A DNA stretch of 64,000 nt from Deltaproteobacteria bacterium. Its GTDB lineage: Bacteria > Lernaellota > Lernaellaia > JACKCT01. Location: NCBI GenBank assembly GCA_020845895.1, contig JADLEX010000053.1, positions 1 to 64,000 of the forward strand. Reading direction: 5' to 3'. The notes beneath the pieces were generated by a model. It worked only from the letters and a program-made list of their open reading frames with translations, ran no database searches and was not told the DNA's origin. Positions 35,245 to 47,512 of the stretch are shown here, one piece after another (the first letter of the stretch is position 1; every line of letters begins with the position of its first letter). The translations under genes were made by a program, and so were the position numbers.

Positions 35245-35252
35245 CCGAGATG

Positions 35253-42518: not shown

Positions 42519-42613
42519 TTTTTTAACTACCAAGAACGTTTAATCTTAAATGTAGTTCATATGTACCTTTTTAATTATAATTTTTCATTAACTTCTTTTC
42601 ACTCTTCACTTCA

Positions 42614-43279
42614 TCACGGAATACACATATAAACGATACTCCTCTCCTCAGAAGTCATCGTTTCGCTGAATGTCTCAACGAATTTTGTCAATTTTTTACT
42701 ATACATTCCAAATGCCGTGTTGTAGAAATTTCTTAGAACAAATTCAATAAAAATACTCGGAGTCAACGGAGAAGTCACGGGGATTCTGCAATTTTTATAT
42801 TGCCCCAACGTCAAGTGAGACGCTGAATGTGTCATCCCATTATCTGCATTGTCACTATTATAATCAAACCTAAACGGAAAAGGAATTATATTTTTCATCA
42901 CGATATCTGCATATATCTCATCCTCTAAATACACGTTCGGTTTGTTTTGAAACTCTTCCAAATAGGGCGAAGGGAAAAACCCCAACCGGTGTGCGGCAAT
43001 GACGTCTTTATCAAATCTGTACATAAGTTGCAATAACGCGCCATCAATCATTTTAATATTGTATGTTTTACTCGACAACATTTCATCATATTGAGTTTTA
43101 TACGGAATATTTCGCAACAATGAGCTTATGCCTGAACTGCCAGAAATGCCTATCTCGATCTTCCCCCTCCCAATTTTCGTCATAGAGGGAAACTGCTGGT
43201 CATTACATAGACTAAAGCCGATTAGTTCGGAAGTGAGAATTTCAACCTGTTTTTGAATGCGGCGCGGTGTAATTGTCAT
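42614..43279 (-). CDS. DUF2290-family protein
   Basis: The 221-residue protein fits DUF2290 closely: TPRRIQKQVEILTSELIGF at the start, MIDGALLQLMYRFD, HRLGFFPSPYLEEFQNKPNV, EDEIYADIVMKNIIPFPFRFD, SHLTLGQYKNCRIPV and FVLRNFYNTAF near the end. No enzymatic motif is recognised and the family has no assigned activity that I know of. It overlaps the helicase gene by four bases (ATGA), so the two are translationally coupled and probably act together. Codon use and base composition are unlike the host, indicating transfer. Confidence 0.88.
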   Translation of the reverse strand: MTITPRRIQKQVEILTSELIGFSLCNDQQFPSMTKIGRGKIEIGISGSSGISSLLRNIPYKTQYDEMLSSKTYNIKMIDGALLQLMYRFDKDVIAAHRLGFFPSPYLEEFQNKPNVYLEDEIYADIVMKNIIPFPFRFDYNSDNADNGMTHSASHLTLGQYKNCRIPVTSPLTPSIFIEFVLRNFYNTAFGMYSKKLTKFVETFSETMTSEERSIVYMCIP

Positions 43280-45441
43280 TTTTTCTTGGCTCGTTTTGCT
43301 TCTAACAAATTACGAAGTTTCTCAACTTGCTCAGACCCTAAATCCTCAACATATAAACGTCCCGCACTCAAATCTTCAATTAATGTCGCTAGTTCCTTTT
43401 TTCCTTTTTTCACTTTTTGTATTTCTGTTTCGGTCATGTCTCGGTTAACTATGTTAATTTTTTTCCTTTCATCCTCTGTTGGATACCTGAATGACAGTTT
43501 ATATAGATTCTTTTTGACTCGTTTATACTCACGCTCAAGGTTCGACATTCCCACACCGACTCCACACACACGCACCCACGCTTTAGTTCTTGTTATAGCA
43601 GTAAATATACGATTTCTCACCGCTGCCAGATTTCCAAATGAATTGAAGCAGTCGTGAGCGTTAATAATGTATACCATACCGGCCTCGTTTCCTTTAGCTC
43701 TAAATATGCCGGTAAATGCTATTGATTTCTTGTCTGTATCAAAAAAAACATCTGGTGTAGTGTCTACGCCCGCCAAATGTGTATTTACTCCTCTTTCAAA
43801 TAGCAATTTTCTAAGTGGGCCAACAGCGTCCCGAGTGGTCAGTGGCTCCGGATTGATCACAACAATGTCGTCAGGCCGTAGCTCATCTTCATTCAAATTT
43901 TTTTCTATCTCGTCCGCTATCCATTCTGCCTGCTCATCTGGTGTATTAAAGGTTTTAAACACAATCAGATCGTCAGTTTCAGAGTGGCTCTCCAGAAATT
44001 TCGGGCTGCTCTCCTCGGTGCGTACAAGCGTGACCTCAAGTCCATCAGCAAGCTCACCTCTCTCGACGCTGTATCCGACCTCCAACCAAAGCTCTGTGTG
44101 ATCAAAGATCTGGACAAGACCGGTTCCGACCTCAATGTCTGCATCCCGATAAATTCCAAACCCTAGGGCGTGAGCTGTCACCAATAACGGCCTAGAGTTG
44201 CGATAGCACTTTTCCAATATAATGTCCTGATGAGGTATGCCAATTTTTTGCGTTTCAAATTTAACGCGAGGCGAGCCGTCCGAATTTTTACCAAATATTA
44301 TTTCAGGAGGCGGCAGCGCTTGCGAAGCCAAATTCTGCAGTTCGTCATAAGCATAAACGAGTCGTCTTTTTGCGGTAGTAAGTTCATAACATATCTGTAA
44401 AAAGCTAGGTGGAAAATCTTGCGCTTCGTCGATTAAAATAGCGTCATATATCCCGACTGACTTTTTTATCTGCTGAAGAGCTCTTTCGCAAGCGCCATTA
44501 AATTCATTCCGACTTCCGAATTGACCTCTAGCGGAATTGAAATCATGGTATTCGATCCCGTGTAATTGCGAAAATACATAATACAAACCATTGCGATCAC
44601 CACCGCCCGGGGCACCCCAGGCATGAATAACTTGAATGTTGTCCCAGTCTGGTTCTTCGTTCGTCTGCTCAATTGTAAATGTATTTATGAGTTGTCTGAA
44701 CTGTCCTTTTAGCGATCTAGTATTAAAGGTGACTGCGATTTTCCAGTCCGGATGTTGAGCGTGAAGATAGGCAGCTTTCAACGCGAGCACAATTGTTTTC
44801 CCGGACCCCGCCAAACCTCGAATTCGCTGCACGCCCTCAACCGTTTCTATTACCGCTTGTCCTTGCAGATTATCCAAATTTGCAATCGAGTCTTCCAATT
44901 TTTTTAATTTGGCTCCTCTTGAGTCTTCTTTTTTGACTTCTCGTTTCTTTTTTCCTTTTCTGATACTCGAAATTGACTGTAACACCGCCAATAATGAACC
45001 GTAAATAGTTGAATTTTCCCAACTTAATTTGTCAATATAGCCTTTTAGTGTTTGCTCTGTGCACACAACATGATCATCATTGAGGTCTGTCTTAAATCCC
45101 GCGACAGCGGATCCAAAACTTACAACATTAATTGGTACTTGGAGATCTCGCCCTTTCATTAACGATTTATGCCCTTTTAGTTTGGCTTCAACTTTATTTG
45201 CGCAATCATCTTGAATTTCTATAAAATTACCTACGTTTCTCCCCTCTATAATATTAAATATTACCAGACCTTTTTCTGGAGAAATCCACAATGCGTCGAT
45301 AGGGAAAGCCCCTTCCGAGGTTCCGATTATGGGATATCCGATATAGAGAAAGCCATTATAACCATGATGTTTTGCAAAGAAAAGCGTCAGACGACTGCTC
45401 GAAACAGGCTTATTTGTTGTCCCTAAAATAATATTAACCAT
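43276..45441 (-). CDS. SF1 (UvrD-like) helicase with a nuclease-like N-terminus
   Basis: The 721-residue protein has Walker A GLAGSGKT (209-216), Walker B with DEAQD (338-342), the later motif VYAYDELQNL, and the C-terminal UvrD_C-like AITRTKAWVRVCG near 630: a superfamily 1 helicase/translocase. The N-terminal ~150 residues (GAFPIDALWISPEKGLVIFNI) resemble NERD/PD-(D/E)XK-like nuclease folds, though the expected ExK triad is not clean. The ATG at 45441 has AGGGGG upstream. It is the first gene of the pair with DUF2290. A phage- or plasmid-defence role is inferred from the mobile setting and the helicase-nuclease layout. Confidence 0.9.
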   Translation of the reverse strand: MVNIILGTTNKPVSSSRLTLFFAKHHGYNGFLYIGYPIIGTSEGAFPIDALWISPEKGLVIFNIIEGRNVGNFIEIQDDCANKVEAKLKGHKSLMKGRDLQVPINVVSFGSAVAGFKTDLNDDHVVCTEQTLKGYIDKLSWENSTIYGSLLAVLQSISSIRKGKKKREVKKEDSRGAKLKKLEDSIANLDNLQGQAVIETVEGVQRIRGLAGSGKTIVLALKAAYLHAQHPDWKIAVTFNTRSLKGQFRQLINTFTIEQTNEEPDWDNIQVIHAWGAPGGGDRNGLYYVFSQLHGIEYHDFNSARGQFGSRNEFNGACERALQQIKKSVGIYDAILIDEAQDFPPSFLQICYELTTAKRRLVYAYDELQNLASQALPPPEIIFGKNSDGSPRVKFETQKIGIPHQDIILEKCYRNSRPLLVTAHALGFGIYRDADIEVGTGLVQIFDHTELWLEVGYSVERGELADGLEVTLVRTEESSPKFLESHSETDDLIVFKTFNTPDEQAEWIADEIEKNLNEDELRPDDIVVINPEPLTTRDAVGPLRKLLFERGVNTHLAGVDTTPDVFFDTDKKSIAFTGIFRAKGNEAGMVYIINAHDCFNSFGNLAAVRNRIFTAITRTKAWVRVCGVGVGMSNLEREYKRVKKNLYKLSFRYPTEDERKKINIVNRDMTETEIQKVKKGKKELATLIEDLSAGRLYVEDLGSEQVEKLRNLLEAKRAKKK

Positions 45442-45588
45442 TTAATTCCCCCTAAATTGAGTCGCGCCAAGCGAAATATTGTTTACAAATGAGGAGTAAA
45501 TGTAGGCTACTTTTATAAGATCATCTATGCGGACTGGAGCCCGAGAAACCGGTCGCGCGGGAAATCGATCGCGCTCGAACGTCACCAT
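45442..45588 (-). CDS. Possible 48-residue ORF abutting the helicase start
   Basis: An ATG at 45588 opens MVTFERDRFPARPVSR... and stops with TAA directly against the helicase ATG. The helicase ribosome site (AGGGGG) lies inside its last codons. The peptide runs from the GC-rich patch into the AT-rich segment, so it may be a chance junction frame. A forward 54-codon frame (45527-45691) also covers this region. Neither has a recognised family or a good ribosome site. Confidence 0.22.
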   Translation of the reverse strand: MVTFERDRFPARPVSRAPVRIDDLIKVAYIYSSFVNNISLGATQFRGN

Positions 45589-45732
45589 CTCACATATCAA
45601 GAAGTCCTTCAAAGACACGCCAAAGCCCTTTCTAGCTGCAGTTCATCCAAATGCTGTGCATTCTCCAAATAAACACTGTCGTAACATCTAGCTAGTTCCC
45701 ATTGAGCTTCCAGCGAGCCAGTGTCCAGTCGA

Positions 45733-47394
45733 CTATAGGGTGATTTCGTCCCCTGTCAATGCCACCCCCGCCGTCAGATCGTCCAGATCGACGAGCGACC
45801 AGATCAGCGACGTGCCGTATTCGCTGAACGTGGGATCGCCCATGCCCTTCCACGTCGAGACGACGCGCGCGAATTGCAGCACATTGTGGTCCACCACCGT
45901 GCCGTTCACCTCGAAGTCGTCGTGGAGCGTCATCGTCGATTCGACCAGGTAGTTGCCGTAACCGTAGGCGGCGGTGCCCATCGGGTCGCTCCAGCGCCAC
46001 GGCGTGTTGATGTCGGCTACATGCAGCTCGAGCTCCCCCACGAAGTGGCTCGAGTAAACGGGGTGGTCCTGCATCCACTGCTCCGAGTCGGAGTCGGTGA
46101 AGCTGTGCGCGAGCAGCAGGTTGAACGTGCCCGGAATCGGTTTGACCGAAAACTCGCCGAACTCGGTCTTGTCGATGACCGGCACGGCCTGCTCGATGTC
46201 GCCCTGAACCCAGCAGCCGTCGTCGGGACCCGTGTAATACTGAATCGACTGATACGCCGTGGGCGATTCGATATCCGCGAGATTGATGTAGGCCAAGTAG
46301 AGCGCACTCGATCGGTAGTTCGGATGCGAACCGACTACGCACGGACCCGCGTTCGGTTGCGCGTCGGCGAAGCTCACGGTGTTGGCGACGGGCCGGCCGC
46401 TGCCGTACACGACGAGCCCGCGTTCGTGCGCCTCGCTCCACGGCAGCGGGCACTCGTCGGGATCGACCGTGTTGTCGCGCTCGACCAGCATGGGCGCGGT
46501 CTGGATGAACTTTGGCCCGGCCCACGGCGAGATGTACCGCCAGTCGCCTGACACGACATCCATCGCCACGAGGTGCGACTGGTCGCAAGCGGTGTTGTTC
46601 ACGTACTTGCCGTACCAGTAATAGATCGTCTCGTCGTCCACCTGCGCGACGCCGGTGGGAACGAAGAATCCCACCTCGTGATCCGTCGGCTCTCCGCCCG
46701 GGAAGATGTAGGCGCGCTCGGCGTCGTTGAAGAGCGTGGTCGGATCGCCGTCGCCGTCGAAAGCGACATACGGCGTCACCGACTGATACTCGGGTACCGC
46801 GCCGCTGTTGCCGGAGATCGTGTCGATCGCCGCGTCGCCGTCGGTGTCGAGCCCCCATGGCACTCCGAGCATCGGTCCGGATTCCACGTCCTTCGACTCG
46901 TCCACCGGGTGCGTGTCACCGAAGAAAAAGTAGGTGACATCGCCGACCAGCACGTTGTTCGCGAGATCCGTTCCCGCAATCACGGCATCCCAATGTTCGT
47001 CGGCATCGTAATCGAATCCACCGGGGAAAACTTCGGAGGTCAGTTCGTCGCCAGGGTCTTTCGCGGCTTTTCCGGCGAGATCCACTCCGTAGTACTGGCA
47101 AATGCCGACCTCCGCCTTGATGCCGTTCTCGTCGAAACACTCGGCGTCGTCCCACGAGGTTTCGTCGTCCCCGTCGTCATCGGCTGCATCGTCATCCGAC
47201 GCGTCGTCGTCCGAAACATCGTCGTCGGAAGCGTCGTCATCGGTCGCGTCGTCGTCCGTGACGTCGTCATCGGACGCATCGTCGTCGTCCGCGTTCGTCG
47301 CGTCGTCTTCATCGCCCGCGCATCCCGTGAGGATCAGGCAAACCGCGAATCCCGCGTGCGTGAACAGACGAAAGCCCCGGCGCATGGCGAGCAT
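45733..47394 (-). CDS. Lipoprotein with DDD pentapeptide repeats and a DUF4185-like domain
   Basis: The product is 553 residues. A signal peptide ends in LILTGC (good lipobox), followed by an acidic linker in which five-residue units such as ASDDD, VTDDD and ATDDD repeat about ten times. The folded region contains GDVTYFFFGDTHPVDESK, resembling the 'fFGDT' hallmark of DUF4185 beta-propeller-type domains, then many aromatic beta segments. Surface display on a long acidic stalk is likely; no enzyme activity is assigned. I chose ATG 47394, after GGAGGGG. It ends just before the AT-rich insert, which may have removed its original downstream region. Confidence 0.8.
   Translation of the reverse strand: MLAMRRGFRLFTHAGFAVCLILTGCAGDEDDATNADDDDASDDDVTDDDATDDDASDDDVSDDDASDDDAADDDGDDETSWDDAECFDENGIKAEVGICQYYGVDLAGKAAKDPGDELTSEVFPGGFDYDADEHWDAVIAGTDLANNVLVGDVTYFFFGDTHPVDESKDVESGPMLGVPWGLDTDGDAAIDTISGNSGAVPEYQSVTPYVAFDGDGDPTTLFNDAERAYIFPGGEPTDHEVGFFVPTGVAQVDDETIYYWYGKYVNNTACDQSHLVAMDVVSGDWRYISPWAGPKFIQTAPMLVERDNTVDPDECPLPWSEAHERGLVVYGSGRPVANTVSFADAQPNAGPCVVGSHPNYRSSALYLAYINLADIESPTAYQSIQYYTGPDDGCWVQGDIEQAVPVIDKTEFGEFSVKPIPGTFNLLLAHSFTDSDSEQWMQDHPVYSSHFVGELELHVADINTPWRWSDPMGTAAYGYGNYLVESTMTLHDDFEVNGTVVDHNVLQFARVVSTWKGMGDPTFSEYGTSLIWSLVDLDDLTAGVALTGDEITL
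47172..47295 (-). repeat. 15-bp repeats encoding the (xxDDD)n linker
   Basis: Tandem, slightly diverged 15-bp units of the form GTCGTC-N-TCGGNNGC (plus-strand view) encode the acidic pentapeptide repeats of the lipoprotein. Such arrays can change copy number by slippage. Confidence 0.8.
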
Positions 47395-47512
47395 GGACCC
47401 CTCCATGGATCGATGAATACTCCACTATTCGGCTGTCCGGGTCCGAACATTGAGGGAAATTCGAGAAGGAGTGGATCCACCGACGCAATACGAAGGTGCG
47501 TTACCCGCGCGG

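Follow-up and report, generated by a model that had tools for sequence, protein, structure and literature searches.

The question raised by this locus is what two AT-rich minus-strand genes, which in the ORF list of the 64-kb window (the whole stretch of DNA analysed, 64,000 nucleotides) are flanked by two host genes, pepF and one encoding a lipoprotein, represent, and how their products, an SF1 helicase and a DUF2290 protein, might act together. The G+C content of the insert carrying them (Table 1) is 40.2%, compared with a mean of 63.5% (SD 2.6%) for 1-kb windows elsewhere in the 64 kb, i.e. a z score of about -8.8, and it is the sole stretch of the window below 55% G+C. The difference is also apparent from GC3 values, which are 0.37 for the helicase gene and 0.43 for the DUF2290 gene versus 0.87 for pepF. 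On the left, the composition changes sharply at the pepF stop (42518); on the right the change is more gradual, the AT-rich part stopping near 45520 and being followed by a region of mixed composition (45520-45732, 40-60% G+C). The helicase stop and the DUF2290 start share 4 bp (43276-43279). An earlier reading, made by a model from the letters and their ORFs (the sequence-only reading), had described both an AT-rich insert beginning at the pepF stop and coupling of the genes by a 4-bp overlap, and both descriptions hold.

No integrase is present at the ends of the insert, where a search gave no convincing repeats and no convincing tRNA target, the single tRNA of the window being at 35252. An Rfam search gave no match, and the right-hand junction sequence has no second copy in the genome. 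An empty site was not found, the flanks being non-syntenic in the sister genomes: in one of these (G001) homologues of pepF and of the right-flank gene are both present, on separate contigs, and the sister pepF regions have no second neighbour in common with the window.

Two observations concern the right flank itself. The product of the flanking gene is lipoprotein-like, with a long Asp-rich repeat past its cysteine, and when used as a query gives 7-25 matches in every one of the phylum's seven genomes; these are mostly limited to the Asp-rich leader, a pattern as though a single acidic leader were fused to many different proteins. A sigma-70-like site (TTGACA, 16 nt, TATAGT; 11/12) at 45732-45759 on the minus strand spans the stop codon of the same gene and points to the helicase gene, about 290 nt off; it may be there by chance.

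Table 1. Features of the insert, its flanks and the encoded helicase.
Feature	Position	Strand or protein	Basis or remark
pepF, host gene, left flank	ends 42518	+	homologues in sister genomes
AT-rich foreign insert, ~3 kb	42519-45520		composition; flanking genes have sister-genome homologues, DUF2290 has none
DUF2290 gene, 221 aa	43279-42614	-	ORF
Helicase gene, 721 aa	45441-43276	-	ORF
Likely Shine-Dalgarno sequence, AGGGGGA directly 5' of the helicase ATG	45442-45456	-	TTTAGGGGGAATTAAA-ATG read from sequence
N-terminal domain of helicase, NERD/PD-(D/E)XK-like	residues 1-172, 44926-45441	-	D49 kept, E-x-K missing
Walker A, GLAGSGKT	residues 209-216	helicase	alignment
Motif II, DEAQD	residues 338-342	helicase	alignment
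RAKGNEA	residues 581-587	helicase	alignment
TAITRTK	residues 614-620	helicase	alignment
Lipoprotein gene, host, right flank	45733-47406	-	homologues in sister genomes

The identity of the pair is apparent from profile comparisons. The Pfam UvrD-helicase (N-terminal) and UvrD_C_2 models both exceed their cut-offs in the helicase, and its partner matches Pfam PF10053 (E 3.6e-49), so that the SF1 helicase and DUF2290 assignments made earlier from the sequence are correct. The helicase also matches the PADLOC model PDLC03002 over essentially its full length (1123.6 bits, E 0, residues 1-714, profile positions 1-705 of 707), with all other PADLOC models below 56 bits, and the DUF2290 protein matches PDLC02999 (313 bits, E 2.1e-94, residues 3-220); the PADLOC rows are named only 'Helicase' and 'DUF2290', such that it is from these names and from published work that the two are joined as one system. 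The system concerned is the Helicase + DUF2290 system of Rousset et al. 2022 (PADLOC PDLC03002 with PDLC02998/PDLC02999; DefenseFinder Rst_HelicaseDUF2290), in which an ATP-dependent helicase and a DUF2290 protein of P4-like satellites inhibit T7, further copies being found in prophage hotspots of Vibrio and Bacillus (PMC9122126). The sequence-only reading had proposed a two-gene anti-phage module in a foreign segment, without matching it to a named system; the foreign composition, the matches to the system models and the pairing described below agree with the former proposal, but the module does have a name and has been experimentally tested.

The present locus has what characterises the system, i.e. 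two full-length matches, the helicase gene directly upstream on the same strand, coupling of the genes, and an accessory, mobile setting. It differs from the founding examples in being in another phylum, and in being a chromosomal two-gene insert with no visible phage or satellite genes around it. An E. coli plasmid pair matches the same models, its helicase being 52% and its DUF2290 protein 40% identical to those in the window; no near match to that plasmid pair was found among complete genomes of E. coli. As judged from these comparisons, the locus almost certainly represents the Helicase + DUF2290 anti-phage system already described, present in complete form and acquired by horizontal transfer; the anti-phage role of this particular copy is putative, following from its membership of the system.

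The association of the two genes across genomes is close. Among 84,980 species genomes scanned, DUF2290 was detected at 54 loci; in 50 of these the helicase gene is directly upstream on the same strand, and where the spacing could be measured the two genes are no more than 20 bp apart in 43 of 46 cases. The four exceptions comprise three loci that start near the end of their contig (L047, L052, L054) and one orphan in a Snowella genome (L031:4122-4703), which has an N-terminally broken DUF2290 gene with no helicase in its vicinity and seems to be the remnant of a pair. Among plasmid records, DUF2290 was matched in 13, every one of which also encodes the helicase over at least 95% of its length, and in two further, divergent plasmid records (from Lactococcus and Exiguobacterium) a DUF2290 gene comes immediately after the helicase gene. 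Co-occurrence is therefore far beyond chance. The distance matrices of the two proteins are correlated (41 pairs; Mantel r 0.72, p 0.0001, the best of 9999 permutations reaching 0.30), a value to which common ancestry contributes. From these observations it can be inferred that the helicase and DUF2290 proteins act as a single unit.

This unit has the distribution of an accessory element rather than of a core gene set with host-like composition, which, along with co-occurrence no better than chance, had been named as a finding that would overturn the earlier proposal. DUF2290 is present in one of the seven phylum genomes examined and absent from the six others, and in 41 of 44 relatives the flanks are richer in G+C than the pair (mean difference 8.8 points). 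Within about 2 kb of the relatives there are genes for type I restriction, a PLD-helicase with a DUF1156 methylase, DpdF, BrxL, integrases and resolvases, as well as housekeeping genes. DUF2290 matches occur on four viral contigs, while phage records gave none. Two divergent plasmid pairs are of note for their surroundings, i.e. that of a Thioflavicoccus mobilis plasmid (L057:3852-6705), which lies within a BREX locus between DNA methyltransferase and PglZ/BrxL genes, and that of a Lactococcus dairy plasmid (L134:658-5339), near an annotated abortive infection protein gene and with an IS6 transposase behind.

The occurrence of the insert in only one of the seven phylum genomes, isolated and with neither an integrase nor convincing end repeats, could also reflect a decaying passenger, i.e. 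a former defence system that is now inactive in its present host. Both reading frames are uninterrupted and complete, the ribosome-binding site is good and no invariant residue is missing, which renders this very improbable.

Within the helicase, the motif residues are nearly all invariant in a 43-sequence alignment. Among solved folds, SF1 helicases come nearest to the predicted structure (pLDDT 84), led by human SLFN11 and SLFN14; because TM-scores over the whole chain are low (0.3-0.4), the structural likeness can be read for the helicase core only. The Pfam Schlafen group 3 helicase model gives weak matches in 21 of the 43 aligned helicases (best E 1.1e-4). Together, the fold and model matches hint at a helicase lineage shared with the Schlafen proteins.

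The N-terminal domain is more equivocal. Its first 110 residues are predicted to have the alpha-beta-beta-beta-alpha-beta order of a PD-(D/E)XK domain and can be aligned with NERD domains in the same register, though weakly (P = 0.003; probability 10%). D49 is invariant among the 43 sequences and E66 is conserved in 41 (95%), but the E-x-K element is absent from all 43: position 63 mostly reads N/H/D/S, and position 65 mostly V/I, never K. Among divergent pairs, the Lactococcus and Thioflavicoccus helicases likewise have no E-x-K, and that of Exiguobacterium is without even the aspartate. By contrast, two unpaired NERD helicases, from Halapricum and Leptolyngbya (annotated as nuclease-related), have E-C-K and E-V-K, respectively, at the equivalent place, and neither has a DUF2290 gene nearby; this comparison sets 43 paired sequences and four divergent pairs against two unpaired ones. 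No match to Pfam NERD or to any nuclease family was found for the helicase N terminus. Thus, of the nuclease-like N terminus claimed in the sequence-only reading, the likeness in fold order and register stands as suggestive, whereas nuclease activity is probably lacking, given the missing E-x-K and the lack of a nuclease family match. The domain is probably a degenerate, non-catalytic NERD-type domain, as indicated by its residue pattern.

It may be argued, from the invariance of D49, the near invariance of E66 and a domain order fitting PD-(D/E)XK, that the N-terminal domain is instead an active non-canonical nuclease and the effector of the system, in which D49 would act together with E66 or with a lysine from the helix that follows, under regulation by DUF2290. 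None of the 43 aligned sequences has a lysine at the catalytic position, the Exiguobacterium pair is without even the aspartate, and those of Lactococcus and Thioflavicoccus are without E-x-K, which makes this proposal improbable.

The DUF2290 protein, by comparison, has an enzyme-like conservation pattern. Its predicted fold (pLDDT 86.5) has terminal helices and a largely beta centre, and 19 residues are invariant in a 44-sequence alignment, including D79, R137, D139, H151, H155, C164 and R165. The divergent plasmid copies keep the DG, HRLA, RFD and HxxxH motifs and the Arg positions, and D79, R137, D139, H151, H155 and R165 are retained even in the divergent BREX-embedded copy. The conservation of this polar set suggests that it forms an active site. 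Foldseek comparisons with the PDB and with viral structures gave nothing at E <= 0.001, and remote sequence searches gave no match to another family, with no other Pfam family being reproducible. Two specific candidates were set aside: a weak peptidyl-tRNA hydrolase match, seen in one of the 44 aligned sequences, was taken as chance, and homology to TumE (DUF6516), suspected from the RxD...HxxxH appearance, had a probability of 0.7-2.3% in profile comparison.

The literature searched contained no solved mechanism for the Helicase + DUF2290 system, but genetics are available for one member. PA1372/PA1371 of P. aeruginosa PAO1 has been named a 'Helicase + DUF2290 system' (PMC11637435). PA1372 adjoins PA1371 in an insert with 44% G+C, compared with 67% for the genome, and loss of PA1372 abolishes the fitness cost of plasmid pNUK73 and the associated expression changes, including the SOS response and high rep expression (PMC4410645). 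The PAO1 pair resembles the present one in being a low-G+C insert in a high-G+C host, the likeness being drawn through the published naming and not through sequence; it has been studied for plasmid cost rather than for phage. The PAO1 plasmid and T7 data are consistent with a trigger linked to the replication of foreign DNA.

In the mechanism proposed here, the SF1 helicase would engage abnormal replication DNA of phages or plasmids and hydrolyse ATP on it, with its NERD-type domain, having lost its catalytic residues, serving as a platform that binds DNA or the partner. DUF2290 would be the effector, delivered or released by the engaged helicase; it would most likely be a nucleic-acid hydrolase of alpha+beta type using the invariant Asp/His/Arg/Cys set, and its action would halt the infecting element and, in the case of plasmids, also bring about the observed SOS response and loss of fitness. 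The sensor role is assigned to the helicase because of the PAO1 genetics, and the effector role to DUF2290 because of its residue conservation and the lost nuclease site in the helicase. That E-x-K is missing in the 43 relatives and kept in the two unpaired helicases makes a sensor helicase with a DUF2290 effector the best mechanism, one which is held tentatively, with a little under even confidence. The overall explanation, i.e. an acquired Helicase + DUF2290 copy with a sensor helicase, a dead NERD platform and a DUF2290 effector, is judged marginally probable.

Several points count against these assignments. No enzymatic activity was recognisable for DUF2290 in the PDB, viral-structure and remote sequence comparisons; E66 or the lysines of the next helix could constitute an unusual N-terminal active site; and the PAO1 data are also consistent with a helicase that, instead of delivering a nuclease, raises plasmid copy number or rep expression. 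In an alternative of some weight, though unlikely, the role of effector falls to the helicase, which would remodel or stall the replication forks of phages and plasmids, and DUF2290 is a non-catalytic regulator or adaptor that restrains or targets it. Such a role is consistent with the invariance of the helicase motifs, with relief of the plasmid cost on inactivating the helicase alone (PMC4410645) and with the lack of a recognisable enzyme fold in DUF2290. It is less readily reconciled with DUF2290 being as obligate as the helicase, or with the enzyme-like polar set kept in very divergent DUF2290 copies, which exceeds what a simple adaptor needs.

A helicase that senses and a partner that acts, as favoured here, would have parallels in other defence systems. 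In Gabija (GajA/GajB) a UvrD-type SF1 helicase is likewise combined with a second protein, and the system serves as a model of the way in which an effector can be licensed by a helicase; assignment to Gabija was rejected, the GajB models scoring at most 19.7 bits and the partner matching PF10053 only, and not an OLD/TOPRIM nuclease. Hachiman (HamA/HamB) shares the two-gene logic of a helicase plus an effector, and its helicase senses damaged DNA (PMC12278908). Its components, i.e. the SF2 helicase HamB and HamA, a DUF1837 protein with a D-ExK element, are both absent from the present locus, where no DUF1837 match was found and the helicase is SF1 UvrD-like and not SF2 Ski2-like. The unpaired NERD SF1 helicases (NERD+UvrD, PADLOC C3a187; STM2767 family) are homologous in the helicase core (28-31% identity) and have a PD-(D/E)XK-type N-terminal domain in the same position, but the two examined retain an intact E-x-K and have no adjoining DUF2290 gene. 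Membership of that nuclease-helicase group was rejected on the lack of a Pfam NERD match and the absence of E-x-K in 43 of 43 sequences.

By itself, the locus extends the Helicase + DUF2290 system to one further bacterial lineage. The useful addition is that paired and unpaired helicases differ in specific residues, and the family comparison yields predictions at the level of residues, i.e. that the nuclease-like domain is catalytically dead and that DUF2290 is likely the active partner. It may be, as a doubtful but specific proposal for the origin of the system, that a self-contained NERD nuclease-helicase lost its nuclease site on gaining DUF2290, which took over catalysis in trans. If so, DUF2290 would have an effector fold not recognised before and would be a new enzyme that cleaves nucleic acids, with an SF1 helicase as its gate.
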